From Fragilaria crotonensis (taxonomy: Eukaryota > Bacillariophyta > Fragilariophyceae > Fragilariales > Fragilariaceae), in the NCBI GenBank assembly GCA_022925895.1, contig JAKSYS010000003.1, positions 310,001 through 374,000 of the forward strand: DNA of 64,000 nucleotides. The letters run 5' to 3'. The position numbers and the translations under genes are program-made. Under the pieces are notes generated by a model, which saw only the letters and a list, made by a program, of their open reading frames with translations, was not told the origin of the DNA and did not search any database. Shown here piece by piece: positions 17,351 through 62,106 of this stretch (positions are counted from its first letter, which is position 1; each line of letters opens with the position of its first letter).

Positions 17351-17521
17351 GGATCCGATTAGAATGCAAGGAAATGACGTCAAGCCGTACTCAGTACCAA
17401 TCAGCATGCTCTCCCTATGCTACTGTCTTACTGGAGTACTGTATCACCGTAGGTTGTACATGCAGGGCTCAGTACTGATTGGTACGGCTTGACGTCATTT
17501 CCTTGCATTCTAATCGAAACC
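17351..17521. mobile_element. MITE with GGATCCGATTAG ends, copy 1
   Basis: A 171-bp element whose ends are long inverted repeats of about 38 bp with two mismatches: the left end begins GGATCCGATTAGAATGC and the right end, reversed, begins GGTTTCGATTAGAATGC. Each arm contains TGACGTCA. The centre is GTAC-rich. A second copy in opposite orientation at 45919-46081 shares the same ends and centre, which fixes the boundaries. It has no coding capacity. No clear target-site duplication is visible, so the transposase family is uncertain. Confidence 0.75.
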
Positions 17522-22522: not shown

Positions 22523-23524
22523 TCAGGCAACTTCAGCACGCGTCATGTACTCCTTGTGATCAAGGTATCCCTCATACGACTCTGCCTTGTGTCCGCACAC
22601 CTTCTCGAAATCATGAGAAACAAAGGCGAGTTGCTCTTCCAACCCGGTAGCCTTTATCTTCTCAAGGGCCACCAAGTCCTCGATGAGCCACTCTGGATCG
22701 CCCCCAGCCTTTTCGCCTTCCTCGAATACGTGCAAGGGTTGATCCACAAATTCAACGGGCTTTTTCAAGTGCTTGGAGAGAAGCGATGCCACAACTTGAT
22801 CCGTCATCGCGTAGGGACCAGTAAGAGTATATTCCTTATCGTAGTGAGTTTTTGGTTCTAACAAGACACGCACAGCAACTTCGGCAACATCGTTAGGGCT
22901 AACGTAGTTGACTCCCCTTCCACGTGAGGAACCGTACATTGCTGCTGGTTTCTGATCCGAGCGGAGTTCTTTGCCTTGAAATAAGAGAGGGTTCGACATG
23001 AAGTGGCTAGCAGAGAGAATGGTGTATGCTAGCCCAGAATCGGCTAACATCTGATCACACTGGCCATGAGCCTTGACAAGTGGAACACTCTGGAGAATGC
23101 TATTCGAACGGCGTGCATGGTAGAAGGAGAGCTTGACAAAGTGCTTCACCCCCGCTGCCTCGCATGCTTCCAAGAAGAGCGGGAACTTTTCATCCCAGTT
23201 CGCCACATATGGTGCCGTGCAAAATACAGACTTCACACCTTGCAATGCCTTCTCGTAGGTGGCATCGTTATCCCAGCGGAAGTCCGCGATTTCAGCGCCC
23301 TCCTTGCCGAGCTCTTCCGCGACGTCGGGATGGTGAACCCCGAGCCTCACTGTGGGATATCCAGCCCTCAAGAGACGTGTCGCGACACGGTATCCCACGA
23401 CTCCAGTTCCTCCTGTGATGAAGATTGTACCGGAAGTTGGATCCAAGTTCGGGATGCCCAGTTTTTCCCCCACATCGGCCAGGACAAGGCCGAGGCTGGA
23501 CACAACATCTTTTACCTTCTCCAT
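22523..23524 (-). CDS. NmrA-like NAD(P)-binding protein, copy 1
   Basis: A 333-residue atypical short-chain dehydrogenase of the NmrA/isoflavone-reductase-like type. The Rossmann nucleotide loop GGTGVVG is at 38-44, after a 30-residue amphipathic N-terminal extension. Further family features are VKHFVKLSFYHA (about 125-136), where the catalytic Tyr of classical SDRs is not clearly kept, and VNYVSPNDVAEVAVRVLLEP, the usual substrate-domain helix. Proteins of this type act as NADPH-dependent reductases or redox sensors; the substrate is unknown. No signal peptide is seen. A near-identical paralogue lies 3.3 kb upstream in the same orientation (26855-27853), so this is a local tandem duplication. 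Confidence 0.85.
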   Translation of the reverse strand: MEKVKDVVSSLGLVLADVGEKLGIPNLDPTSGTIFITGGTGVVGYRVATRLLRAGYPTVRLGVHHPDVAEELGKEGAEIADFRWDNDATYEKALQGVKSVFCTAPYVANWDEKFPLFLEACEAAGVKHFVKLSFYHARRSNSILQSVPLVKAHGQCDQMLADSGLAYTILSASHFMSNPLLFQGKELRSDQKPAAMYGSSRGRGVNYVSPNDVAEVAVRVLLEPKTHYDKEYTLTGPYAMTDQVVASLLSKHLKKPVEFVDQPLHVFEEGEKAGGDPEWLIEDLVALEKIKATGLEEQLAFVSHDFEKVCGHKAESYEGYLDHKEYMTRAEVA

Positions 23525-24157
23525 GCCGGATGTCTTTCAATATCTTAGTTGCTGTTTTTAGTCGAGTTGTAGGTCAAAAAATAATGTGCCCCAAAATGAA
23601 ATTGATGTTTTCTGCGGGTTCGCAATCTTATCCACCTGCAATCAACAGTATACGCCGTGTACGAGTACAAGTACCTGGTAGCTCTGGTGGGATGTCACGA
23701 TGTCACTATGTCACGATTCACGATGCTAACCCTGCCATTTTTCTTGATTGACACCGTTCTCATTCAACTCGAGAGATGAATTTCGAAGATTTTCGCACCA
23801 CTTTCGGATTCGGTACATGTACTACTCGGAGTTTTCGTCATTCGGACTGCAGGGTTACGTTGTATATAGCATATAGTACCCGGTACTCACGAGTCACGAA
23901 TCATAAGTGGACTCTACGCTATTGTACCGGTACCAGCCTGTATATCTAGGTTGATTGTACAGTACCAGGTAGTTGTTTTACATATTGGATGTCGGGAATT
24001 TCTGTATCGCAACATGTATCATATGGAACTACAATACTCGAGTATGACTTATCGAAAATGTCATACGCTAAGAAATAGTAGTGGTACAACTTGTACTGTA
24101 TACTGTAGGTGGCTGTCATCCCACCCAGGGTGATGGTCATCCGTGTGAGTCGAGTAT
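23525..24157. other. Intergenic upstream of NmrA-like copy 1
   Basis: About 630 bases that include the promoter of NmrA-like copy 1 and GTAC-rich stretches (about 23640-23690 and 23870-23970). No gene is supported. It ends where the inverted-repeat element begins. Confidence 0.4.
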
Positions 24158-24194
24158 CCCGGGTCCGATTAGGTTTCACCAATTTGACGTCAGC
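24158..24194 (+). repeat. Left terminal inverted repeat
   Basis: Left arm of the 2.27-kb element. It pairs with 26388-26425 over about 37 bp and includes TCCGATTAGGTTTCACC and TGACGTCA. Confidence 0.75.
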
Positions 24195-25020
24195 ACTTTT
24201 CAGCACTTTTGTTGCGGAATTTAACTTGTACGGAATCTTTATCTTTGATTTTCTCAGCGCCCACTTTTCAAACCACCTCTTGTGCAAAACTACGTTCTAG
24301 ATAAGGAACATAAATCAGCGCCACATTTGTTTGAATAGAAATAAAAATGATCGTGTCTAGATGTGTATATAACAGGGTACCAGTAGTGGATTCAAGTTTA
24401 CTCACACAAAACTCATAATTTTGATATTTCACAACCACGATGGTACGGCACTTTGTCTCCCTGTCATTCTTGTTTCTCTTGTTGTTCTTGCTCTCCTTGC
24501 TGCTTTTGTTTCTCTTGTTGCTGTTGTTCTGTTTTTGCTCTTGTTCGCTCTCTGTCTGTTGCCATTTTGCGTTACTACAGCACCCACCTACCGATTATTC
24601 TGTAACCAACCCCCTGTTTTGTTCTCTTTAGGATCATCCACAACAAGCAAGAAGGACCATTGATGCAGGATCCACATCCAGTGGATCAGACTCTATCTGC
24701 TCTCAAGGCTATGTCATGGACTGCTTCTTTGCCTTTCAAAGGTCATTTTTGTCATGCAACCGATTTCAATGTATCATTGGAAACCAAGTATGACCTCTTT
24801 CAGTACACTACTTCTATGTACAAAGGTTCCAAGCACATTATTTGGTCCTAGCTAATCAATGTCGCAAGAGATCCACTTGCCTGAGGCACCACTCAACGAC
24901 CTCTGTTCTGGACATGAAACTGATGTTTCTGATAATTTTGTTGATGTACAGCACACGAAGTACATTTAGTAGAATTAAAAACAACTTTCGTTCTTGTTCG
25001 ACATCATGAGTAGGATGGGG

Positions 25021-26110
25021 ACTACTATTTGGTGATCGAAATTTGATCTTCAAATAGTCGTACAGTACGAGTAACACTAGTACAGTACAATGGCGACTAT
25101 TTGGTGATCAAATTGATCTTCAAATAGTCGTCACATACAGTATCACCAGTACAGTACAATGGCGACTATTTGGTGATCGAAATTGATCTTCAAATAGTCG
25201 TCACAGTATGAGTAACACCAGTACAGTACAATGGCGACTATTTGGTGATCAAAATTGATCTTCAAATAGTCGTCACAGTACGAGTATCACCAGTACAGTA
25301 CAATGGTGACTATTTGGTGATCAAAATTTGATCTTCAAATAGTCATCACAGTATGAGTAACACCAGTACAGTACAATGGCGACTATTTGGTGATCGAAAT
25401 TGATCTTCAAATAGTCGTCACACGAGTATCACCAGTACAGTACAATGGCGACTATTTGGTGATCGAAATTGATCTTCAAATAGTCGCACAGTATGAGTAA
25501 CACCAGTACAGTACAATGGCGACTATTTGGTGATCGAAATTCGATCTTCAAATAGTCGTCACAGTACCAGTAACACCAGTACAGTACAATGGCGACTATT
25601 TGGTGATCAAAATTCGATCTTCAAATAGTCGTCACAGTACGAGTAACACCAGTACAGTACAATGGCGACTATTTGGTGATCGAAATTTGATCTTCAAATA
25701 GTCGTCACAGTACGAAAACAGCAGTACAGTACAATGGCGACTATTTGGTGATCGAAATTGATCTTCAAATAGTCGTCACAGTACGAGTATCACCAGTACA
25801 GTACAATGGCGACTATTTGGTGATCGAAATTTGATCTTCAAATAGTCGTCACAGTACGAGTAACACTAGTACAGTACAATGGCGACTATTTGGTGATCGA
25901 AATTTGATCTTCAAATAGTCGTCACAGTACCAGTAACACCAGTACAGTACAATGGCGACTATTTGGTGATCGAAATTCGATCTTCAAATAGTCGTCACAG
26001 TATGAGTAACACCAGTACAGTACAATGGCGACTATTTGGTGATCGAAATTGATCTTCAAATAGTCGTCACAGTACCAGTAACAGCAGTACAGTACAATGG
26101 CAAATAGTCC
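25021..26110. repeat. Hairpin minisatellite, about 15 units of 73 bp
   Basis: Fifteen near-identical tandem units plus a partial one. Each unit has an inverted repeat, CGACTATTTGGTGATC then a 5-7 base loop (GAAATT, AAAATTT, GAAATTC) then GATCTTCAAATAGTCG. A spacer of about 30 bases follows, with CAGTACGAGTAACACCAGT and ACAGTACAATGG. As RNA the arms would pair over about 16 positions with one U-U mismatch and one G-U pair. Arms are very constant, while loop and spacer vary in sequence and by a few bases in length. Unit five differs at both partners of one stem pair (T25307 and A25345 in place of C and G), so pairing is kept. Transcription is unknown. Confidence 0.95.
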
Positions 26111-26387
26111 TTTGAGTACGGTAGTACTGTTGCAGTACAGTGTAGTACTCGAGTGATTCAAAAGGGAAACACATGAAGATTCAAAAGGGAAACACATGAA
26201 TCACTGATAGAAGGAGAAGAGTAGCAGTTATCTATCTGACATGACAAAGGCTTGGCATGCGCATTAGGAAAAGCACCGATAGAAGTCAACAACAAAGATT
26301 CCGTGTTTTGTCAGCCATTCAAATTTCCGATGTCTTCAAAATTCTTCTACAGGAGGTCTCACTGTAGATTATTACTATGACGTGGGC

Positions 26388-26425
26388 GCTGACGTCAAAT
26401 TGGTGAAACCTAATCGGATCCTGGG
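26388..26425 (-). repeat. Right terminal inverted repeat
   Basis: Right arm of the 2.27-kb element, the reverse complement of 24158-24194 with two or three differences. It ends GGATCCTGGG and is followed by TA. Confidence 0.75.
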
Positions 26426-26854
26426 TACAGCGGCAGCACGGTAAATTAGGTTTCTGGTTGTTTTTTTTTGTACTGTATACTGTATATAGTACATAACCAG
26501 TCTGGTAGCATGATAATTCGTCGCGGATGAAAACGTTCATTTCTCTACCGTCGTAGTATTGGAGTACTGGTAATCAGGTACTGGTACTCGATGTCAATTT
26601 TGCGGAGAGATTGCTTCACAACATCATACACTTTGGTAATCTGTGACATGAGCGTCTACCGAGCTCCCAGAAGTCCGTTTATAGTTAGAGGTTAGAAGAG
26701 GTGCACTGGAATAATGATTCGCAAGCGCCCAACGTATCATCGTAGTAATGTTGATTCGGTCAGTACCTCGTTTCACAAGATAATGTATGTTGTACGTGAA
26801 TTGCATACCGCAACTTATGTTCGCTAATACCCTAACATGGCACGGATGCGCTCC
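26426..26854. other. Intergenic downstream of NmrA-like copy 2
   Basis: About 430 bases between the inverted-repeat element and the end of NmrA-like copy 2. Apart from a short GTAC-rich stretch (26560-26595), nothing is recognised. Confidence 0.4.
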
Positions 26855-27853
26855 TCACACTACTTCTGCCTGCGACATGCACTCGTTGTGATCAAGGTAT
26901 CCCTCATACGACTCTGCCTTGTGTCCGCACACCTTCTCGAAATCATGAGAAACGAAGAGATGTTCTTCCAATCCAGTAGACTTGATCATCTCAAAAGCAA
27001 CCAAGTCGTGAACGAGCCACTCTGGGTCCCCTCCGAGTTTTTCGCCGTCCTCAAACACGTGCAACGGTTGATCCACGAACATGATGGGCTTCTCCAAGAA
27101 CTTCGAGAGAAGCGACGCCACAACTTGATCCGTCAAGGCACAGGGGCCAGTAAGATTGTATTCCTTATCGTAGTGAGACTTTGGTTCTAACAAGACACGC
27201 ACAGCAACTTCGGCAACATCGTTAGGGCTAACATAGTTGACTCCCTTTCCATGAGAGGAACCATACAAGGTTGCTGGTTTACGATCGGCACGAAGTTCTT
27301 TGCCTTGAAATACAAGAGGGTTCGACATGAAGTGGCTAGCAGAGAGGATGGTATATGGTAGTCCGGAGTCGGCTAACATCTGATCACACTCGCCATGGGC
27401 CTTGACAAGAGGGACACTCTGAAAAATGCTTTCCTTACGGCGTGCATGGTAGAAAGAGAGCTTGACAAAGTGCTTCACCCCCGCCGCCTTACAAGCTTTT
27501 AGAAAGAGCGGGAACTTTTCCTTCCAGTTCTCCACATACGGAGCATTGCAAAATACAGACTTCACACCTTGCAATGCCTTCTCGTAGGTGGCATCGTTAT
27601 CCCAGCGAAAGTCTGCGATTTCAGCGCCCTCCTTGCCGAGCTCTTCCGCAACGTCGGGATGGTGAACCCCGAGCCTCACTGTGGGGTATCCAGCTTTTAA
27701 GAGACGTGTTGAGACACGATATCCCAAGACGCCGGTTCCTCCTGTGATAAAGATGGTGCCGGAAGTTGGATCCAAGTTTGGGATACCTAACTTCTCTCCC
27801 ACACCGGCGAGGACAAGGCCAAGGGTGGACGCAACCTCTTCTACTTTTTCCAT
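26855..27853 (-). CDS. NmrA-like NAD(P)-binding protein, copy 2
   Basis: A 332-residue paralogue of the protein at 22523-23524, with long identical blocks through the Rossmann fold (GGTGVLG at 38-44, VRLGVHHPDVAEELGKEGAE). Similarity continues through VNYVSPNDVAEVAVRVLLEP to the C-terminal SHDFEKVCGHKAESYEGYLD. Differences cluster in surface positions and near the end of the substrate domain, so specificity may differ slightly. Similarity at the DNA level runs through the coding region and stops at its ends, which suggests an old enough copy for the flanks to have diverged, or a gene-sized duplication. Role as for copy 1: NADPH-dependent reductase or redox sensor, substrate unknown. Confidence 0.85.
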   Translation of the reverse strand: MEKVEEVASTLGLVLAGVGEKLGIPNLDPTSGTIFITGGTGVLGYRVSTRLLKAGYPTVRLGVHHPDVAEELGKEGAEIADFRWDNDATYEKALQGVKSVFCNAPYVENWKEKFPLFLKACKAAGVKHFVKLSFYHARRKESIFQSVPLVKAHGECDQMLADSGLPYTILSASHFMSNPLVFQGKELRADRKPATLYGSSHGKGVNYVSPNDVAEVAVRVLLEPKSHYDKEYNLTGPCALTDQVVASLLSKFLEKPIMFVDQPLHVFEDGEKLGGDPEWLVHDLVAFEMIKSTGLEEHLFVSHDFEKVCGHKAESYEGYLDHNECMSQAEVV

Positions 27854-33712: not shown

Positions 33713-33835
33713 AGCAGTTGCAAAAGTGCAAGGACTCACAGTGAAGACATACGCCCTACGAATATCTATCAGTGCACACGAACCTAACCTTCTGATAACA
33801 CATTCCTCTATATGATGGCGACAAAGTCTGCGCGT

Positions 33836-34780
33836 TCACGCAAGGAATACATTTACATGCCCACGATATCCGTCGCCTAAATCAGTCTCATGGACCTCTC
33901 CCAACGGATGCTGATGTATTAGTGTCCACCCCTCATTTTGCATTCCGACCTGAAAGGCCTCTACCTTTTCACGAAAGGTATTCTTCGCGCGTTCAAGGAG
34001 AGTCTCATCGCGAATCTTCGACATTGCATCAGCAGTATCCGAATTTTGGCTTTGTTGTCGGATCATGCGGCTGCCAACTTCGCCGTACACATCGGCCAAC
34101 TTTTCGTAATTGATTTTACCCGGTTTGAGATTCGGCGAAGGGTTGTTGCTATAATCCAAGCAGTCACCCTGAGGAGTGTTCATAAAGTTTTCATCAGTGT
34201 GGGGCAATCCGAATCCATGACCGATTTCGTGGCACATTGTGTACTGCTTGTCATCACTGTTCGTAGAACTTGTCAGATAAAACTCATTCATCTTGGCGAC
34301 ACTGCTGACAATTTTATTAGCGGATGTCAAGATGAGTTCGTTTATACCACGCCAACCTGTATCACCATAGTTTCCATTGCAAACTTTCATCACTCCCTCG
34401 ACTTGGGAGCAAGCGGATTCGGCCGAAATCCGAGTCGTGGATAAAGTTAATGCATCAGGTGTCCCTGACTGCCAATCGGAGACCGCTTGCGCAAAGTAGA
34501 CTTGCCAATCGTCATCGAGAGCATTCAAGATCTCCAATGTAAGACCTCCTCTGCCTTTACTGAGCCGCCACTGATATACAGTTCCATTCACCCCGCCGCC
34601 ACTCGCAAGCCCCGCGAAGGGGTCCGTGTCCAAGACATCACCAAACCCACCTCGCAACGAGTCACCGAGATTTTGGATATCTTGCCGGCTGAAAAAGCCA
34701 AAGTAAAGGCCAACGCCGATGGCAGCAAGTGCACACATAGCGGTAGTCAATAGACAGCTGCAGCATGATCCCTGTGCCAT
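33836..34780 (-). CDS. Membrane-anchored metzincin-like metalloprotease, copy 1
   Basis: A 314-residue protein with an uncleaved signal anchor (about 11-30, TAMCALAAIGVGLYFGFF), so probably type II with the catalytic domain outside the cytosol. The zinc motif HEIGHGFGLPH is at 184-194 (H184, H188, H194 as ligands, E185 as catalytic base). It is followed by the family-specific ENFMNTPQGDCLDYSN, where the Met may form the metzincin Met-turn. Several Cys in the domain suggest disulfides. I do not recognise the exact family; it resembles small fungal and protist metzincins. The C terminus (EAFQVGMQNEGWTLIHQH) is shared with the second copy at 40523-41443. It ends 123 bp from the end of the PHD gene. 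Confidence 0.8.
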   Translation of the reverse strand: MAQGSCCSCLLTTAMCALAAIGVGLYFGFFSRQDIQNLGDSLRGGFGDVLDTDPFAGLASGGGVNGTVYQWRLSKGRGGLTLEILNALDDDWQVYFAQAVSDWQSGTPDALTLSTTRISAESACSQVEGVMKVCNGNYGDTGWRGINELILTSANKIVSSVAKMNEFYLTSSTNSDDKQYTMCHEIGHGFGLPHTDENFMNTPQGDCLDYSNNPSPNLKPGKINYEKLADVYGEVGSRMIRQQSQNSDTADAMSKIRDETLLERAKNTFREKVEAFQVGMQNEGWTLIHQHPLGEVHETDLGDGYRGHVNVFLA

Positions 34781-39116: not shown

Positions 39117-40522
39117 TAAAGTAAGGTTGAGAGTGAAACTCGCCATAGAATACAAATGGTGTCGTACCGTCGTACATGGATTTCAAGTATCAGTATCCAC
39201 TATCCACTATCCAAGTACCCCTACCTAATTGTGCTCGAATTCACTGCACCAATCGGCGACACTATTTGGCCCCCGTTTGGCGGAGACGCAAGGCGTAGCT
39301 ACAACTGACGGTCCGCTCGCATGGCAACCGACATGCCCTTCCTTCACGTTCTGCTGCCACTGCAAGTGCTGGTGGCCGTTATGCTGGGAGAAAGGAAGGG
39401 CCAATGGTGGCAGGAAATTCCAATTCTGACAATGAGGATGACAAAAGAAGTTATGAGCCTCCTGTAACTTGGCAAAGAATGTGCAATAAGATTGCCATAT
39501 ACCAGCCAGTAAGAAGTACAAGGAGGACATGTTTGTTGTGAAAAACAGTGTTGTTGTTGGCAAATGCAGAGATAGCAGTGATCATCATGGTGAAGTTGTG
39601 ATTTAGGACGTGATTTTACCACGTTAAAATCTTAAGATTGAGTTTTGTACAGAAAATTTTTGCGGAATTTGTTCTTTCATTGACGATTTTTCTAGGACAC
39701 AAATTTGAAATGGGCTTGAAAAAACGCTCTCTCTCTCTTCGTGAAATCATACCACCAATATCAGGCCGTATTACAAATGTAGGACAGATTTAGGAAGTTC
39801 ATGTACTTGCAACTTGCAGACAGTGTGTACTGTACGAATACGATTCTCTTCGTTTTAGAAATTGGGAGTTAGCAAGCATCACAAAAATGTGTCCTTTTTT
39901 GTCCCAATCATTTTCATTTCCAAGCCGGGGTTAAGGCCCAATGCCAGGCTTTCCGAGTCAGATGTCATATATGCATCCAGCAGATATAAAGAAGGAGTTC
40001 TAATACGTACGTATCTTCAACATTGGCAGCATTACCAGTTACAAGGCTCCCGACGTTATCTCCTTGTTAGTATTGTACTATCTTACATTACATTGGATTA
40101 TTACATTATAATAACATTAATACATACACATAAAGACTTTGGCGCTATGGCCCGAGTCCCTCCAGTGATACTGCGCACTTCATACATAGTACCTTGTACC
40201 TTGTATGTATGCACATGTCATACGTGTGATGTGCGCCATGGAAATCAAATACGCGAGAATCGTACTACTCCCGTTCTCCCGTTTCCCGTACTCTGAGTTC
40301 ATAGTTGACAGTACATAAGTACTATACTCGACTGCACTATACTACACTGTAGTTCGCTGGGAAAGTCACACAGCGCACACAGCACTAATTGTACTCTAAT
40401 TAATGCTCGTGTCCTTTAATACTACTCCAGTACACAGTACATTAAGAGCACTAAGGACCTCTAAGTTTGACAAGATGAACTACATGCTAAACACTTTTCT
40501 CTCCGGTAAGGCCCATGTTCGT
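39117..40522. other. Intergenic between transposon and metalloprotease copy 2
   Basis: About 1.4 kb. Open frames at 39225-39640 on both strands are Cys/His-rich without domain character and may be relic sequence. From about 40060 to 40450 the sequence is rich in GTAC and TACT words. No gene is supported. Confidence 0.4.
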
Positions 40523-41443
40523 TTACGCAAGGAGTATATTGACATGACCTCGGTAGCCTTCCCCTATCTCAATTGAGTGGATCTCGCCGAATTCATGCTG
40601 ATGCAACAGGGTCCAACCCTCGTTTTCGATTCCCACCTGAAAGGCCTCCACTTTCTCACGGAAGCTATTCTTCGCCCATTCTGGGATGCGCATAACATGG
40701 CTTGAAGCCTTAGCAATGGCGGAAATCTGGCGGTCTCGACGTTGCCGGCGGGAAGTGACCTCTCCGTACGCACTTACCAACTTCTCATAGTTGATTTCGC
40801 CAGGTTTTTGATTCTGCGACACGCTGTTGGAATAATCCAAGCAATCTCCCAATGGAGTGTTCATAAAGTTTTCATCCGTGTGGGGCAATCCGAATCCGTG
40901 ACCAATTTCGTGGCACATAGTATACTGTTTATCGAGGTCGCTTGTAGTGCTTGTTAGGTAAAACTCATTCATCTTGGCGACACTGCTGACAATTCTATTA
41001 GCGGATGTCAAGATGAGTTCGTTAATGCCGCGCCAGCCAGTTTCCCCGTAGTCGCCGTTGCAAACCTTCATCACTCCCTCAACTTGTTCACATGCTGACT
41101 CGGGAGTTGATTGACTAGTTGACAGGGTTAAGGCATCCGGTGTTCCAGAATCCCAATCACTAATCGCTTGCTCGAAAAAACTCTGCCAAGAGTCGTCTAG
41201 TGCGTTTAAGACTTCCAAAGTAAGTCCTCCTTGACCCTTGGTTCCCACCCATAGGTACACTGTTCCATTGATGCCTCCTTTGCCAGCAAACGGATCTGTA
41301 CCTATAATCTCGGTAAATCCATCTGTGAATGCACCGACAAGATTCCCGAGATCTTGCTTGGAAAAATATCCGAAGTAAAGGCCAAGTCCAAGACCAGCAG
41401 CGATGACTACTATCGTCACCAAGAGGCAGGAAAGCGCTCCCAT
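40523..41443 (-). CDS. Membrane-anchored metzincin-like metalloprotease, copy 2
   Basis: A 306-residue paralogue of 33836-34780 in the same orientation. The signal anchor is LLVTIVVIAAGLGLGLYFGY at about 7-26. The zinc motif HEIGHGFGLPHTDENFMNTP is identical to that of copy 1, as are the segments TGWRGINELILTSAN and SSVAKMNEFYLTS. The stem after the anchor and the region after the catalytic domain are more divergent, as expected if only the protease core is constrained. Both copies keep the three histidines and the glutamate, so both look functional. Roles are unknown; secreted or surface proteolysis is the natural inference. Confidence 0.8.
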   Translation of the reverse strand: MGALSCLLVTIVVIAAGLGLGLYFGYFSKQDLGNLVGAFTDGFTEIIGTDPFAGKGGINGTVYLWVGTKGQGGLTLEVLNALDDSWQSFFEQAISDWDSGTPDALTLSTSQSTPESACEQVEGVMKVCNGDYGETGWRGINELILTSANRIVSSVAKMNEFYLTSTTSDLDKQYTMCHEIGHGFGLPHTDENFMNTPLGDCLDYSNSVSQNQKPGEINYEKLVSAYGEVTSRRQRRDRQISAIAKASSHVMRIPEWAKNSFREKVEAFQVGIENEGWTLLHQHEFGEIHSIEIGEGYRGHVNILLA

Positions 41444-45633: not shown

Positions 45634-47669
45634 CAACGCGCGAGCCTTTAGAACATATCTGTATGACTGTATGATTGATACTCCTAACTCATAATAGACA
45701 ACTACCCGTAGTACGGTGCGTGGTAATCTGTATGCATACGTATACAGTATGACAGTATGACACGCATGCATATTGCATATACAGAATATACCCAGCATAC
45801 AGCCGGAGTCCGGAAAAAATAGTGGCATCGCAACGTAGATGAAGGTATGTATCATAGAGTGGTCTACTACCTGGTACTACCGGTAGAGACTAGTAGAGAG
45901 GTACGTTGTACATGTACTGGTTTCGATTAGAATGCAAGAAATGACATCATGGATGACGTCACAGTACCAACCCTTCCACGTACTACCTACGGTGATACAG
46001 TACTCCAGTAAGACAGTAACGTAGGGACAACATGCTGATTGGTATGGCTTGACATCATTTCCTTGCATTCTAATCGGATCCAGTTACTCCAAACGATACC
46101 ATAGCTACCGGTAGGTTCTCAATGCAAGTGGGGCAGACCCTATTGTAGGGCTTGTAGAGACTTCGTGCTCTTCTGGTGTTGTTAAAGTTTATGTACTTGT
46201 TTTCAAACAGTGCATGGTGTCCGTCCAGAGATATTGCCTGTCTTTGCTGCACCGTCACCATGCGGTGGGCAACCCAGTTTTCACAAATTAACTACAGCAA
46301 CCCCAACGAATTCACTGTTTACTACAATTCTCTTCAAGGCCAAAAGGTAGATCCCTTGGTGAATGAATAATTGAAAAACCAAGGTTTGGGTGAGCATCCC
46401 ACTATACTCTTGGAGGAAACCAAGGCTAATTGGACACAAATACAGCACATTCAATTGCCTGCCTCTGCATGAAACTGACAAGTAGCTAGCATACTATCAA
46501 GTGCCACACAAATCAAGAAATTATTGAATGGCTGCATCATGAGCCCAACACATTAGTTTGGTCCTTGTTCAATGTGCAGAATAGGCAAGCAATCCCTCAT
46601 TTTGAACTTGGACACAAATGTATCAGCCTCACATCACATTCAGATTTTCATGATTTTCAGCCAATAGTAGGATTTGTGACTGAAGAACCATTTCAAACTT
46701 GGTCTTTGAGTGTCACCTTTCTGCTTTCTATCAATTAAGGGCGGGCAATGCTCCCAAGACCAATTGCCACCAACATGATGGTGATTGGGGATGACCTTAC
46801 ACTAGTACTGCAGGGATTCAGCGTGTTGCAGTTTTCATGGATAAACACATAGATCGCTAGCATTGCTGGCACAATATGCGAGAATTGGATGTGTGTTTAA
46901 CTTGTTGGCACATTCGTAATTTAACCCTTTTCCCCTACTGTAGAAACGGACTTAAAAACCTGTAAATCCCTGTTTTCGTTATGAGCTGCTAGCCAAAAAT
47001 CTGTTTCAATATAGCAGGTGTGTCCACTTCTGGAGCCATGTCATTAAGAAAATTCTGGCGCCATTCCTCTGAAACGTCATGCCAAACGAATTCCGCTCAG
47101 CGGGTACACGCTGAGTTGTAATGATGACGTCGTTCTTGGCGCAAGTCCTGGAGTTCGCATAACATAAATTCTTCTTCCATGTGATCAGAGCCTAGTAGAT
47201 ATTGTCATAAGTAGGAGGTATGACCCTGAATCTTCATGTACCCTTTTCCAAGATACTCCGAGTACAGGAGATATGAAAAGTAAGTGCCAGAAAATGCAAA
47301 TGGAGTCACAGTCAAGTCGTAATGAGCATAATTATTAGAACTACAAGTGTCATCCCACGTCATTTGTCCTTTACACGAAGGATGCACGGTGAAGCAGTAC
47401 CAAGAACTTGTTCTGCCCTGAAAACAGTTGGCTGATAGGGCGATGTTGGTAGTACTACACATAAGTCGCGGGAAAGCTGGGCATAAATGTGTGCGGTTCA
47501 TTCGAGATCTACAGTAAAAGTCATGGCACCAAGGGAGTTTTTATCGGTTGTTGAATGCCGGCTCCCAGATGCGACCTTGCATTTGTAAAAAAAAGGCAAG
47601 AAAATTCAGGGCAAAAGTCAGGCGGGGCACTCTCGCTAGGAAAGGCTACGCATAACTTCCTAACGTGAA
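45634..47669. other. 2-kb intergenic region with MITE copy 2
   Basis: No supported gene. The first 270 bases are GTAC/TACT-rich and probably include the DHHC gene's promoter. A MITE lies at 45919-46081. From 46.2 to 47.6 kb there are short unrelated open frames and AT-rich sequence that may be old transposon debris. Confidence 0.4.
45919..46081. mobile_element. MITE with GGATCCGATTAG ends, copy 2
   Basis: A 163-bp element in opposite orientation to the copy at 17351-17521. Reversed, it starts GGATCCGATTAGAATGC, shares the central TACTGTCTTACTGGAGTAC segment, and ends CTAATCGAAACC, as copy 1 does. Its arms are less well matched than in copy 1 (TGATGTCA on one side), so it is the older or more diverged copy. 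A perfect TGACGTCA is at 45954-45961. Confidence 0.75.
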
Positions 47670-50946: not shown

Positions 50947-50987
50947 ACGTCGAATTGTTGCTGAATGAGAGTAGTACAGTACCTGGT

Positions 50988-51546
50988 TGTCAGATCATAC
51001 TGTGCTACTGTTGGTACTGTTGGTGGAATCGACGGTACGACCGTACGACGCGACAACGATGTCGAGCTCGACAGTACGACTGTACCAAAGTACGACTGTA
51101 GTAAAACTAATTGTTCGTGCGGATCGACGTCCAGCAATGTCTATCAAGAGGAGGATCTTGGTTGGACGATTGTTGGCAAAGGTTCAAAGAAGTACAAGAC
51201 CAAGACCTGACATGAGGAGTTATGCCTTGAAGGCTGGAACTGTATGAAAGCCTTATTAGGCATATGTCTCTTGGGATTTGGAGACTGGATTGATGTACTT
51301 GGTTTGCTTTCGGTCTTGGAGTTGGTCTTGTTCCAACTCGGACTTAAGGAAAGCAATCTTGTGTTTGTGTTGTTTTGTTGGATGGGATGTGTGTTCAATC
51401 TTGGGAGCTTTTGGAGTCCAAGAACAAGATTGGAATCGATCTAGAAAATGTAATTCTAGATCTCACAATATTCGAAAACAGTATTTGGTAGTGTCTAGGA
51501 GAACTACTGGATTAAGAGTCTACGGTATTGTTGAATTGTTTAACAC
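50988..51546 (+). repeat. 5' LTR of the copia element
   Basis: Starts TGTCAGATCATACTG and ends TTGTTTAACAC; 559 bp, the same length as the 3' LTR. The TG start and the A/C-rich end fit the family. Open frames inside it have no coding meaning. Confidence 0.93.
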
Positions 51547-54500
51547 GTTTTAAAACGATCAGTTAGATTGTAACGATGGAAGAGCAGAAGGAAGCTACGT
51601 TCGGGTCTACGATCAGGGCATTCGCCTTCGACGGCGATGAGACGAAGTTCAGGTCCTGGGAAGGGAAGACGATCGCTCTCGCCGGTTCGAAGGGCTTCCT
51701 CCTCGCTCTCACCAAGGCACCTACGGCCACTGGGTTGACTGCTGAAGAGTTCGAGAACGGCGAAGTCGTCGTGCTGGGCGCGCTGTTGACTGGCGGTGGC
51801 GTGGATGCGACCGGAGCACCTCTTCGTGCTGCTTCGACGACTCGTACGCCTACGACTGCGGAGAACAGGAAGTACAGCGCACGTGCGGCCGCTTGGACTT
51901 ACCTTGTTGCTAGCTGCTCGGATAAAGCCTACGCTTTGATTGAGCGCAGCGCCGGCGATCCTTTCATGGCTTGGACGATCTTGCAGGAAAGTATTGCTCT
52001 ACGGACGCGGAAGAGAACTATCCAGATCTCGCGGAGGCTTTCAGCGCATGCAAGTTGGTGGAAGTCAAGCGTGACCCCGAGTTGTGGTTTAACGACTTGG
52101 ATCATCTGAACATGCGCATTGGCAGGATCAACACGAAGTATGAGAAGGACGAACTACAAATGAAAGCCCACATCATGAACGCGATGTCTTCGGGATACGA
52201 TCCGGTGGTGGTGAAGTTTCGCGGCGAACTTGCAGAGACTTCGCTTACCAAGCTCAGAAAGGAGATTGTTCTCCAGTATAAGTCTTTGGTGAAGGTGAAG
52301 GGCAAGTCCACTTCGGAGTCTGCTTTGTTGGCGAATGCGAACAAACATCCATTCAAGAAGTTCAAAGGAACCTGCAGGAATTGTGGCAAGATTGGCCACA
52401 AAGCGGCTGATTGCACCTCGAAGGCAACCGAAGGGAATGGCGCATCCGGAAAGGGCAAAGGCACCGCTGACAAGTCTCACGTCACGTGCTACAATTGCGG
52501 CGAAAAGGGGCACTATTCTAACAAGTGTCCTAAACCCAAGAAGGATAAAGTCAAGGGTGAAGAAGCTGCAGCTGATATGGCTATGTTTGTGGGCGTCGCT
52601 CGCTTCGTTACGGAGATCGGCGACGACAATGGCGGTCAGGAGGCGAGGAACGGCGACAGGACCAACGATTGGGACGATTCTGAGTTTTTTGATTTTGGAG
52701 AAGTATGTGGAGTCATTGGAGTCAGGTCCGACGGCACGATCCCCCACTTTGAAATTCCTACCATTGTCGCGGAGGACTCTGGTACGAAATTTGTCGAAGC
52801 TACGACCATTACGGTCATTAATCACCCTATCGATCATTATGCCGGATACTCCGTGACAAGGGATTTTGTCGGAACTGCGGATGCTTCCTGTGCGAATGGT
52901 ATCGAGGAGTGGCTACTGGATTCGGGTGCCACTTCGGGCGTTACTTACGATAACAGTCATATGACTGATATGCGTCCATCAAACCGCAAGATCGAGATCG
53001 GAAACGGTGACATGATTGAGACATTTGGACAAGGTACGGTGACACTGTTGGACAATGACGGCAAGTTGGTTTACTTCACAGATGTGTACTATGCGCCTGA
53101 GTTTACGAAACATATTGTCAGTTTTCGCCAGCTCATCGAAAAGAATTGGAGTCTCACTTCGGTCTCGCGTGACGAATTTGTCTGGGATGCTCCAATGTCT
53201 ACTGAACCGGTACGATTCAAAATGAATGCCTCGGACAAATTGTGTTACTTTGAGGGTACGAGGACAACGGTGCCGGAGGAACACCTGACCGTAAATAGTT
53301 TAACTGCAAGTCCTGTGACTCTTGATATCAATGTTGCTCACGGACTGCTCGGTCATCCTGACACTCGGACTGTGAAGGCTATGGCGGCGCAACACGATTG
53401 GACTTTGACTGGGTCGGTTCAACCATGTGGATCGTGTGCACTTGCTAAGGCACGAGCCAAAGCAGTTCCTAAGTCTACGCTGACGAAGGCTAAGGTTCCC
53501 GGGAAAGACTCTTTCTGGACATTTCGGGACCATACGCTGACTCGCTGAATCAAAATAAGTACTGGCTTCGGATCGTGGACGACTTTTCGAAATTCAGTTG
53601 GGACTGTTTTCTTCCTAAGAAGAGTGGAATTCAGATTCCGTTGGCGAAATTACTTAAGGCTAATAAAGCCGCTGGAAAGTCCTGCAAATTCTTGCGCTGC
53701 GACAATGCTGGAGAAAACGAGTCTTATGTACAAGAGCTTTGTGTGGAATATGATGTCATACTTGAAATGACTGCTCCTAACACTCCCCAGATGAACGGTG
53801 TCGTGGAACGGAGCTTCGTGACATGTCGTAATCGTGCTTTCGCTACTATGTACTGTGCGAAACTTTCTTTGGAGACCCAGGCATTGTTGTGGCCGGAGGC
53901 AATTAACACGGTTACCAAGCTGGGCAATTCACTACCTAAGAAGGAGCGTCCGATGACCCGTATACTTTGTGGTACGGTGCGGAGGGTAAGAAGAACCGTA
54001 TTCTGGACTATTTGCAACCTTTCGGACGTGTCGCGTACATCACGAATCGGTCGAAGCTCAAGGCTAAGTTGGATCCGAAATCATTTAAGTGCATCTTTGT
54101 CGGATATTCGGATGACCATTCTGGCGACACTTATAAGTTTTATAACCCTGCGACTAAGCAGACCATTTTGTCTCGTGACGTGCATCAGTGGATGGAGTGG
54201 CATGGACGAATCAGTGCTACGGATGACCTACCTCTGTTTGAACAGTTGAAGATTCTCGAGGACAGTTCGGTCATTGTGCCTGCTTCTGCGATTGTTCCTT
54301 ATGTTGAAGATGCCGAAGTTCGTGATGTTGATGATCTTCTGGACATTCCTGCCGCTACGCCTGGACCGGTCGCGGAGGATGTCATACCAAACGCGCCAGC
54401 TATCGTCGATGTTCCTGCACGGAGGAATTTGGCTGCCTCATTCTCGCCAGCGCATACGAGATCGAAGACGGCGAGAGCAGCTATGCCGGACATGGACGTT

Positions 54501-56214
54501 GCTGCGATGTCTGTTCTATGCGAGACGATACTAAGTGCGACGTTGCAATCGGATCCACAGTTGGGAGTACCAAAGAACTACAAGGAGTTAGTTAAACAAA
54601 ACGACCCTCTATGGATAAAGTCGATGCATTCGGAACTCGAGAATTTCCTGAAGCGTAACGCCTGGGAATTCCTACGTCGAAGCATGCTACCGAAAGGCCG
54701 TAAGACACTGCGAACTCGCTGGATATTTAAGGAGAAGACGGACGGGACTAAGAAGTCACGATCAGTCATACTGGGCTACGAGCAGGTACCTGGCGTAGAT
54801 TTCAATGACTCTTACTCGCCACTTGCGTCGAATCCTACCATCAGACTTGTATTATGCATCACATTGGCAAACGGACGTAAGAAAGATTATTGGGTAACGG
54901 ACATGATCGATGTTGAAGCTGCTTTCTTAAATGCTCTTATGGATCAAGACATTTTTATCGAGCTACCTGAAGGGCTGTTGGAATACTTCCTAAGTAAAGG
55001 AAAGGACCTTCGTGATTTCATTATAAAGCTACGGAGCGCACAGTACGGATTGGTTCAGAGTCCGAGACTTTGGATGGAAACTTTTGCTAAGATATTGATC
55101 GGACTGGGTTAATACAGTGTAAAACTGATCCGTGCTTGTTTATGCTGTTTACAGATGGCGAACTTCAAGCTCTCGTGGTGGTTTACTGCGACGACTGCAT
55201 CGTAACGGGCACTCCGTCAGCCGTTAAGACAATCAAGAAGGGGGTCGCTGGCTCTGTCACTATCTCGGACTTAGGCAGGCTAAAGCGACATCTTGGTGTC
55301 AATTATGAGTTCGGAACGGACAAAAATGGCGACTATATTCTGTCCGGTATGACGGATTATCTTGAGGCCATTGTTCGAGACTACGAAGAATACATCGGAA
55401 GTGACGTCAAGGAACGGTCGACTCCCGGTGCATCTGTGACGCCACCCCTGCGCTCTACGCCCGAAGACGAAATCATCAATATGGAAATGTTTCGGTCATT
55501 TGTCGGACGAATTCTATTTGCATGTGGCAAGACGGAACCTACTATAGCTAATGCATGCAGAGAACTGACCTCACACCTTACTGCCCCAAACGAAGAACAT
55601 TGGAACGCTCTGAGTCATTTGGTGGGATATCTTAAGACTGCGTCACTTCAAGGAATCAAGATGAGGACTCCCGATGATTTAAGAGTGGTTGCCTATGTCG
55701 ATTCGGACTATGCCGGTGACAGAAACGATCGGAAGAGTATCTCTGGTTACTTGGTCACGGTTGGAGGATGTCTTGTGTCTTGGATGTCTAAGAAACAGAC
55801 TGGTGTCACTCTGTCCTCAACGGAAGCAGAGTTTGTGGCTATGAGCAACGTGGCGACTGAGGTAAAATTCATTGTGTCTCTACTCACGGAGATTATGGGA
55901 GGCGGACCTGACGGATCCGACGGCGAAGAGAAAGGTCCAATCATGCCGAGCATTCTACGCGAGGATAATACCGGGGCGATCTTTATGGCGAAGAACACTG
56001 CCATCACACCCAGGACGAAACACGTGGACATTCGAGCAAGATTCGTCAATGACATGGTTCAAGCGAAGGAATTGTCCGTGGAACACATTCGGAGTGAGGA
56101 AAACCCGAGCGACTGTATGACGAAGAATCTGCCGTTGGTATTGTTCAAGAAACACGCGGCACTTGTCTGTGACGGAATGTTTACACGACTTCACGAACCG
56201 ACGAACACGGAGGA

Positions 56215-56773
56215 TGTCAGATCATACTGTGCTACCGTTGGTACTGTTGGTGGAATCGACGGTACGACCGTACGACGCGACAACGATATCGAGCTCGACA
56301 GTACGACTGTACCAAAGTACGACTGTAGTAAAACTAATTGTTCGTGCGGATCGACGTCCAGCAATGTCTATCAAGAGGAGGATCTTGGTTGGACGATTGT
56401 GGGCAAAGGTTCAAAGAAGTACAAGACCAAGACCTGACATAAGGAGATATGCCTTGAAGGCTGGAACTGTATGAAAGCCTTATTAGGCATATGTCTCTTG
56501 GGATTTGGAGACTGGATTGATGTACTTGGTTTGCTTTCGGTCTTGGAGTTGGTCTTGTTCCAACTCGGACTTAAGGAAAGCAATCTTGTGTTTGTGTTGT
56601 TTTGTTGGATGGGATGTGTGTTCAATCTTGGGAGCTTTTGGAGTCCAAGAACAAGATTGGAATCGATCTAGAAAATGTAATTCTAGATCTCACAATATTC
56701 GAAAACAGTATTTGGTAGTGTCTAGGAGAACTACTGGATTAAGAGTCTACGGTATTGTTGAATTGTTTAACAC
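56215..56773 (+). repeat. 3' LTR of the copia element
   Basis: 559 bp, nearly identical to 50988-51546. It is followed by CTGGT, matching the five bases before the 5' LTR. Confidence 0.93.
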
Positions 56774-60160: not shown

Positions 60161-60192
60161 CTAGCTAGCTAGCTAGCTAGCTAGCTAGCTAG
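60161..60192. repeat. (CTAG)8 microsatellite
   Basis: Eight uninterrupted CTAG units, 31 bases after the dipeptidase stop codon and so probably in its 3' UTR. The word is self-complementary, so the run could fold on itself. Confidence 0.9.
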
Positions 60193-62106
60193 ATAGTGCT
60201 TTGGCAAATTTCTGATTGATGAGGCCTCTGGCATTATCAGATCACTTCTCGTACCTTCTACATACACTACACCCCAAGCGGAGGTGCTGCCTTCCCAGGA
60301 AATGAGGTCAAGCAAACAAAACATCTAGTGGCACCGTAGATCATCCACAGCATTTCCTCCATTTTCACAGAGCAACACCATTCCGATTTTTTTTGCCACG
60401 GCACACTCAGCATTTTCATTTCACTTTCGTTTCACCATAGCCACTACTAGAACACAATCTTCACAATGCGACCCTTTCTATGACAAGAAACCATTATGGA
60501 GCTTCTTCACCCCCAGGGGCAAGGTACATTCACATCTGTGTTCTGTAATGAAAACGACTTTTCATTGTCATGAATATGATCATGGTAGTAGATTCCATCA
60601 TTATATAAGTAGTCATTCTGGTTGAGGTGCATCACAGCATACTAACAAACTTGCTAGAGGATAGATGTTCAGGTATTAGCAACGGTTTCAATGAATGCGT
60701 GAGGAGTAATTGCTTGATCACGAAGGTTTTGCTTCATCCAGAACAACAAAGGCAAAGGATATGAAATGCACCACTACTGTGATACCTGAGGCTTTGATGT
60801 CGATGACTTGGACGCATGTACCTGGACAGCTATGCTGAGGACCTCTTCCCTCCTCTGGTTTCCAATGGACTCTCATTCCAGTTCTTCTCTTGCAAAGTAA
60901 GACAAGGCTCGAAGTGTTCCAGCATGTATTCTCATTGTTTTTGATGGCAAAGGCTCATTCTTTTCTGGGAATGCAGACGTAAGGTTTTACAATGCTGTCT
61001 GCAAGTGCTATTGCGAGCTTAATCTTGTCCTCGCACTAGTCACAAACTATGCTGGTGTGAGCTTGCAAAGGAATTCACAAACAGATATCTCGTCTTAAGC
61101 ACAGGTAGCTCTTTCTCTCTGACTATCCTCTAGGTTGTGGTTTGGTGTTGGGTTGATGTCAGCCAGGACCATGGTGGGATGGAATGATGAAGGGCACAAG
61201 AAGGACAGGAAGGCATTCTTCACCACTGAAAAACTGAAAGAAATGCACGTTCAAAGTACATGCTGTACCTCATGTTATACAACTGTTGTGAATTGCTTTC
61301 ATTGAGATCTATGCAAATATTGAATGATGTTTCGGTGAATTGCCAGAATTTCCACTCCAAGGAGAAATCGGACAAGTTCAGCTTTCAGCATATTGCGAAT
61401 TGCGAATTGCGAATTGCGACTGCAATTACAGGACTCCAGGGTACAGCAGGGATTGGAAAAATAATACTGTCCCACGTTGAATCTGGTATTACAGTCCTCC
61501 AGTAGGTAGAATGGTATTGTGCTGTTGCAGTGGGAGGTATTTTGGTATTGAAAAATCCTTCAGTCCGGTATGAATATAACTTCTCTTCATTTTTCGAATC
61601 GCAGTACTTACTCGGTTCCATTGGTTTCGTCCGGTAGGTATAATGGTAGTAAAAACACTACAGTAACAGTAAACTTCAGTACTACAGTACAGAAATGAAC
61701 CGTAAACACACTGATGCAGGACAGAACATTTATGGAAATTCCGACTGGTATTCCCGAACACCGGAATTCAAAATACTACCGACTAAACTCAGTAGAAAAT
61801 AACCAAGGGTCTTGGTTACTGGTTGGTATATTGCAACTCGCAGGTAACCAGTTATTGGGCATCTTAAAAATCACAGTAGTGGCACAGTATAATACCATCG
61901 GTATTTGGTTACCGGTACCGGTGGTTATTTACTTCCAATCCCTGGGGTACAGTACTCCTAGTACCGGCAGATTCGGTGCTACGTAATACTAAGTAGTATT
62001 CAGTACCAGGTATCTCCTACTGGACTACAAGAACCTGAATACTCGAGTACAGAATACCTCAAATGTAATCGGAGTTTGATTTAAACGTTCGAACTTTTAA
62101 GGGGAC

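Follow-up and report, generated by a model that had tools for sequence, protein, structure and literature searches.

A dyad-symmetric minisatellite inside a putative terminal-inverted-repeat element of the diatom Fragilaria crotonensis

A stretch of 64,000 nucleotides of the Fragilaria crotonensis genome, which is called the window here, contains a tandem array of units that can each fold into a hairpin. The locus raises the question whether the folded form matters, or whether the array is a repeat that grew and decayed by ordinary processes. A first-pass annotation, made from the sequence alone, had favoured a role of the fold, because the arms of the stems seemed constant, the loops and spacers seemed to vary, and a change in one arm of the fifth unit was accompanied by a matching change in the other.

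The array and its surroundings

Tandem Repeats Finder (TRF) reported a period of 73, 15.0 copies and 93% matches at 25024-26101. Cutting the sequence at the 5′ arm, with a letter-by-letter check, yielded 15 units of 69-73 bp each on the plus strand at 25020-26098, so that both approaches bore out the 15 units of the first-pass annotation. Every unit has the layout GGCGACTATTTG-GT-GATC, a loop of 5-7 nt, GATC-TT-CAAATAGTCG, and then a spacer. Watson-Crick pairing of the ten outer and four inner pairs was retained in 209 of the 210 cells over all 15 units, and the sole broken cell belongs to unit 1 at the edge of the array. Between them, every one of the 15 units has the interior mismatches G13.T31 and T14.T30, and thus the earlier description of a near-16-bp stem was correct, with 14 Watson-Crick pairs and two fixed mismatches. 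All 15 units are distinct, and the array has the head-to-tail units of about 10-100 bp and the copy-to-copy variation of a minisatellite. Directly downstream, at 26099-26125 (end approximate, plus strand), a possible remnant of a 16th unit was recognized by eye. It consists of a GG edge fused to the 3′ arm CAAATAGTC and lacks the 5′ arm and the loop, and it could have originated from a deletion through the hairpin.

On either side of the array lies a copy of an NmrA-like gene (22523-23524 and 26855-27853); the two tandem copies are both encoded on the minus strand and are 86% identical. Further repeats were observed elsewhere in the window. A Copia-type LTR retrotransposon at 50985-56773 has two 562-bp LTRs that are 98.9% identical and differ at 6 positions, and zinc-knuckle, Pol beta-barrel and RVT_2 matches were found in separate open reading frames. 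A direct duplication (33833-34550 and 40520-41231) is 73% identical and has matches to reprolysin-like metallopeptidases below the Pfam cut-off, and a CTAG tetranucleotide repeat of 9 copies at 60161-60196 includes a 34-bp perfect palindrome.

Rfam gave no match at gathering thresholds, and a tRNA/tmRNA scan found none. The 15-base pattern GACTATTTGGTGATC matched once in each of 28 stretches of viral contigs, which was taken as chance for a pattern of this length, and the hairpin pattern and a 28-base piece of the inverted repeat described below both had 0 matches in bacterial and archaeal contigs. A bacterial promoter and terminator scan revealed no excess; bacterial models are not meaningful for a eukaryote.

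The flanking inverted repeat and shared termini

A self-comparison of the window revealed that the array is flanked by a 41-bp inverted repeat with 93% identity (E 2e-9). The left arm at 24154-24194 (plus strand) contains GGGTCCGATTAG-N12-TGACGTCA, and the right arm at 26388-26428 (minus strand) contains GGATCCGATTAG-N12-TGACGTCA. With up to three mismatches the latter motif occurred at 5 places in the window, while the mean of 100 shuffles was 0.00, and a sixth occurrence lacks one nucleotide. The six places are both ends of three elements, in mirror orientation. The other two, at 17351-17521 and 45919-46081, are palindromic MITE-like elements with the terminal motif GGATCCGATTAG-N12-TGACGTCA; the second is inverted relative to the first and has the 1-nt deletion at one end. 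These two elements could be aligned over their full length with 82% identity over 171 columns. With its paired ends, the region 24154-26428 looks like a larger relative of this MITE family, and the shared ends suggest that its inverted repeat is terminal.

Open reading frames of at least 150 aa were absent from 24154-26428, and the longest that started with ATG had 91 aa (intron-free reading). Together with the inverted repeat and the shared ends, this suggests that the region is a putative non-autonomous terminal-inverted-repeat element of about 2.27 kb with the array inside. Two small open reading frames within it had no match in Pfam; one of 63 aa (24440-24631) has a Leu/Phe-rich and very hydrophobic N-terminal stretch. 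The 41-bp arms had no inverted similarity within themselves beyond that of shuffles (45.3, shuffle mean 43.7 and maximum 67.1). The element is present as a single copy in the 64-kb window. The core of the terminal motif matched once in each of 23 stretches of viral contigs, which was taken as chance, and with one match per stretch a mirror pair did not occur within any of them.

For two of the three elements, a search for target-site duplications yielded a candidate of 8 bp with one mismatch, and the candidate of the array element falls within its own inverted repeat. When random boundary pairs were examined with a slightly different rule, 68 of 400 had a match of similar quality, and thus two or more of three would be expected by chance with a probability of about 0.08. 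A target-site duplication was therefore not established, and this is in keeping with an alternative view, in which the minisatellite arose locally and the inverted repeat represents a shared promoter-like motif rather than the ends of a transposon. The sequence TGACGTCA, a CRE-type bZIP site, was found 6 times in a plus-strand scan of the window, and one of these occurrences lies outside the three elements. However, it is a longer motif that is found at both ends of all three elements in mirrored orientation, and two of the three align over their whole length. This alternative view is thus unlikely.

The paired change in unit 5 and the constancy of the arms

The paired change that had been noticed in unit 5 (25305-25377, plus strand), C25307T together with its partner G25345A, was confirmed in the sequence. 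Each of the two changes would convert a CpG into TpG or CpA. There are five CpG positions per unit, including columns 25-26, which are a CpG in just 3 of the 15 units. Unit 5 alone has no CpG, while the other 14 units have 2-4. At both stem CpGs the transition is confined to unit 5; the first of the two is absent from edge unit 1 as well, via a different change. Transitions were found in 5 of 10 CpG columns, compared with 2 of the remaining 20 C/G columns (p 0.026), or with 1 of 20 when column 53, which lies beside an indel, was dropped (p 0.009); the direction of the CpG changes as losses was read from the units themselves, and not from an outgroup. Arithmetically, two independent single losses would land in one unit by chance in about 1 of 14 cases.

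A covariation test over the units, which the first-pass annotation had called for, did not speak for the fold. The observed value was reached in 34 of 500 shuffles, and just 1 of the 14 pairs had a double-sided change. As an internal control, the next CpG pair inward (columns 19/25) exhibited 9 GT, 3 AT, 2 GC and 1 AC, and thus no association (Fisher p = 1). Over the 15 units, covariation beyond chance and mutation bias, as it would characterize a structured RNA, was not found; there is a single event, and it lies at CpG sites. The paired change is thus weak evidence for a selected fold, and from the sequences of the units it seems to be better explained by ordinary CpG decay. A role of the fold is not supported by the evidence that the first-pass annotation had put forward for it. 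Its hairpin anatomy is right, and paired columns do vary less than the rest.

The CpG content of the surroundings was also determined. The observed/expected ratio of the whole window was 0.95, i.e., there was no overall depletion; it was 1.18 in the array, 0.52 and 0.59 in its flanks, and 0.54 and 1.11 in two other intergenic stretches. A CpG transition accounted for one of the six differences between the LTRs of the Copia-type element. With this result and the ratio of the window, hypermutability of CpG was not demonstrated outside of the array. For three diatoms, CpG methylation across repeats and transposable elements has been reported (PMC9998398).

The variability of the alignment columns was counted in a hand alignment and again in an independent MAFFT alignment, in both cases for units 2-15 (edge unit 1 was dropped) unless stated otherwise. 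In both alignments, 2 of 28 paired columns, 0 of 4 interior-mismatch columns and 4 of 7 loop columns were variable. The spacer turned out to be heterogeneous: 13 (hand) or 12 (MAFFT) of the 19 columns 42-60 varied, but 0 of 15 columns in the block formed by columns 61-73 plus 1-2 did so in either alignment. With all 15 units, the hand alignment had 3 variable paired, 0 mismatch, 4 loop, 14 spacer (42-60) and 1 spacer-block columns, and the MAFFT alignment had 3, 0, 4, 13 and 1, respectively. Paired columns were less variable than unpaired columns (2/28 versus 17/45, Fisher p 0.005, hand; 2/28 versus 16/45, p 0.006, MAFFT), and the difference persisted when the CpG columns were removed (0/22 versus 13/41, p 0.0024, hand; versus 12/41, p 0.005, MAFFT). 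The columns are clustered. Shifting the mask of variable columns through all positions of the unit gave equally good values in 3 of 73 rotations, the true position included, or in 4 of 73 without CpG columns, again including the true position. A weak constraint on the arms thus remains compatible with the data. The earlier statement that arms are constant while loops and spacers vary held true for the arms, the loop and spacer columns 42-60, but not for the 15 invariant spacer columns and the interior mismatches, a total of 19 non-pairing columns that are as constant as the arms. A constrained fold accounts for this pattern no better than a sequence-specific constraint does, or than a young array that has been homogenised.

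Unit 9, the only unit that was folded alone, yielded -26.8 kcal/mol as plus-strand RNA (z -6.4; 0 of 200 shuffles were as good), and it was also more stable than shuffled sequences as minus-strand RNA (z -4.5) and as DNA (z -4.6), so that the dyad symmetry is beyond doubt. A functional RNA, with the array being transcribed and the serial hairpins processed, e.g., to small RNAs that silence the element family, would profit from the stronger plus-strand fold, from the wobble pairs that are possible on the plus strand (G2.U42 in 13 and G13.U31 in all 15 units), and from the fact that paired columns vary less. It is very unlikely, considering that Rfam offered no match, that some unpaired blocks are as constant as the arms, and that the one double-sided change lies at CpG sites and is matched by 34 of 500 shuffles. 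It is rather unlikely that the units act at the DNA level, as palindromes that bind a protein, e.g., the transposase of the element, or that extrude as cruciforms. The invariance of arms, interior mismatches and spacer block regardless of pairing is what a binding site would produce, and the internal repeats of Galileo and Tetris, for which transposase binding is proposed (PMC4079207), are a precedent; on the other hand, the unit had no detectable similarity to the inverted repeat (p 0.19-0.68 in four comparisons), no transposase was identified, and recent homogenisation yields equal constancy. If an RNA fold or a palindrome that binds protein were under selection, a single observation would speak for it, namely that paired columns vary less, and this would result from a binding site or from recent homogenisation too. 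It is quite unlikely that the serial hairpins are the working part of the element, be it as transcripts diced to small RNAs or as extra transposase sites, with arms under selection. As another source of the paired change, copying from arm to arm within one hairpin during repair had been suggested, which would explain a double-sided change in a single step. It is extremely improbable, because the G2.T42 mismatch just outside the changed pair was retained in unit 5, as were both interior mismatches in all 15 units, and because the changed site is a CpG and the other CpGs of unit 5 were lost too.

A proposed origin of the array and related systems

What was directly observed is the array, the inverted repeat around it and the termini in common with the other elements. 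The history behind them was probably the following: a minisatellite was amplified from a short dyad-symmetric segment within the non-autonomous terminal-inverted-repeat element (about 24154-26428), which is related to the two MITE-like elements, and the paired change in unit 5 is the result of CpG decay. In this scenario a non-autonomous element with the shared ends would have inserted beside the NmrA-like genes, presumably mobilised by a transposase that was supplied from elsewhere. A dyad-symmetric segment inside of it would then have been amplified head to tail, and the hairpins perhaps aided amplification by stalling replication. The array may have grown and been reshuffled via unequal exchange, slippage or conversion between units, and the paired change would represent two of several decays of CpG to TpG or CpA, without selection for the fold.

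Several observations bear on the turnover of the units. Among 8 variable sites, which were chosen by hand, all four combinations were found for 10 of 28 pairs, and a higher-order repeat was not detected at lags of 1-7 units, as units at these distances were no more alike than in shuffled order (lowest p 0.13). These two results point to exchange between units or recurrent mutation. In addition, a stretch of 229 nt, which corresponds to about three units, is found again with 96% identity at a distance of 290 bp, or four units, downstream. There was no support for an origin of the unit in the inverted repeat or in the interior of the MITE-like elements (lowest p 0.11 over six comparisons).

The element appears analogous to several known systems in its working. 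Tetris of Drosophila virilis is described as a foldback-like non-autonomous element, the outermost bases of which are common to the MITE DAIBAM (PMC4079207, PMC6278893), so that the same transposase probably mobilises both (PMC4079207). It resembles the element described here in being a non-autonomous terminal-inverted-repeat element with internal tandem repeats and terminal bases in common with a MITE (PMC4079207). The Tetris repeats are, however, about 220 bp long, lie inside the terminal inverted repeats and share a 37-bp stretch with their end (PMC4079207), whereas the hairpin unit of 73 bp is located in the interval that the inverted repeats enclose, and has no detected similarity to them. 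Xstir and miDNA4 of Xenopus are likewise reported to have tandem arrays within miniature terminal-inverted-repeat elements, and it is described that satellite arrays can arise when tandem repeats inside MITEs expand (PMC12628747). In contrast to these MITE-borne satellites, copies of the array outside of the element were not found in this window. Tandem units with inverted-repeat hairpin potential are also reported for the satellites of Tribolium madens, which are multi-megabase and putatively (peri)centromeric (PMC13081366), while the array described here comprises 1.1 kb between two genes. In a group of diatom Mutator-type elements the terminal inverted repeats are given as 123-124 bp (PMC6446971); no transposase was found here that could be compared with them. 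Among the listed titles and abstract openings of open-licence papers, none describes a diatom repeat of this kind.

Taken together, a probable MITE-related element that bears a dyad-symmetric minisatellite represents a stage that has been proposed for the birth of satellite DNA. The locus also holds the lesson that two CpG decays can pass for a lone "compensatory" change within a tandem array. If the constancy of the stems held over independent arrays, it would become testable whether hairpin units have an advantage in amplification or in silencing.
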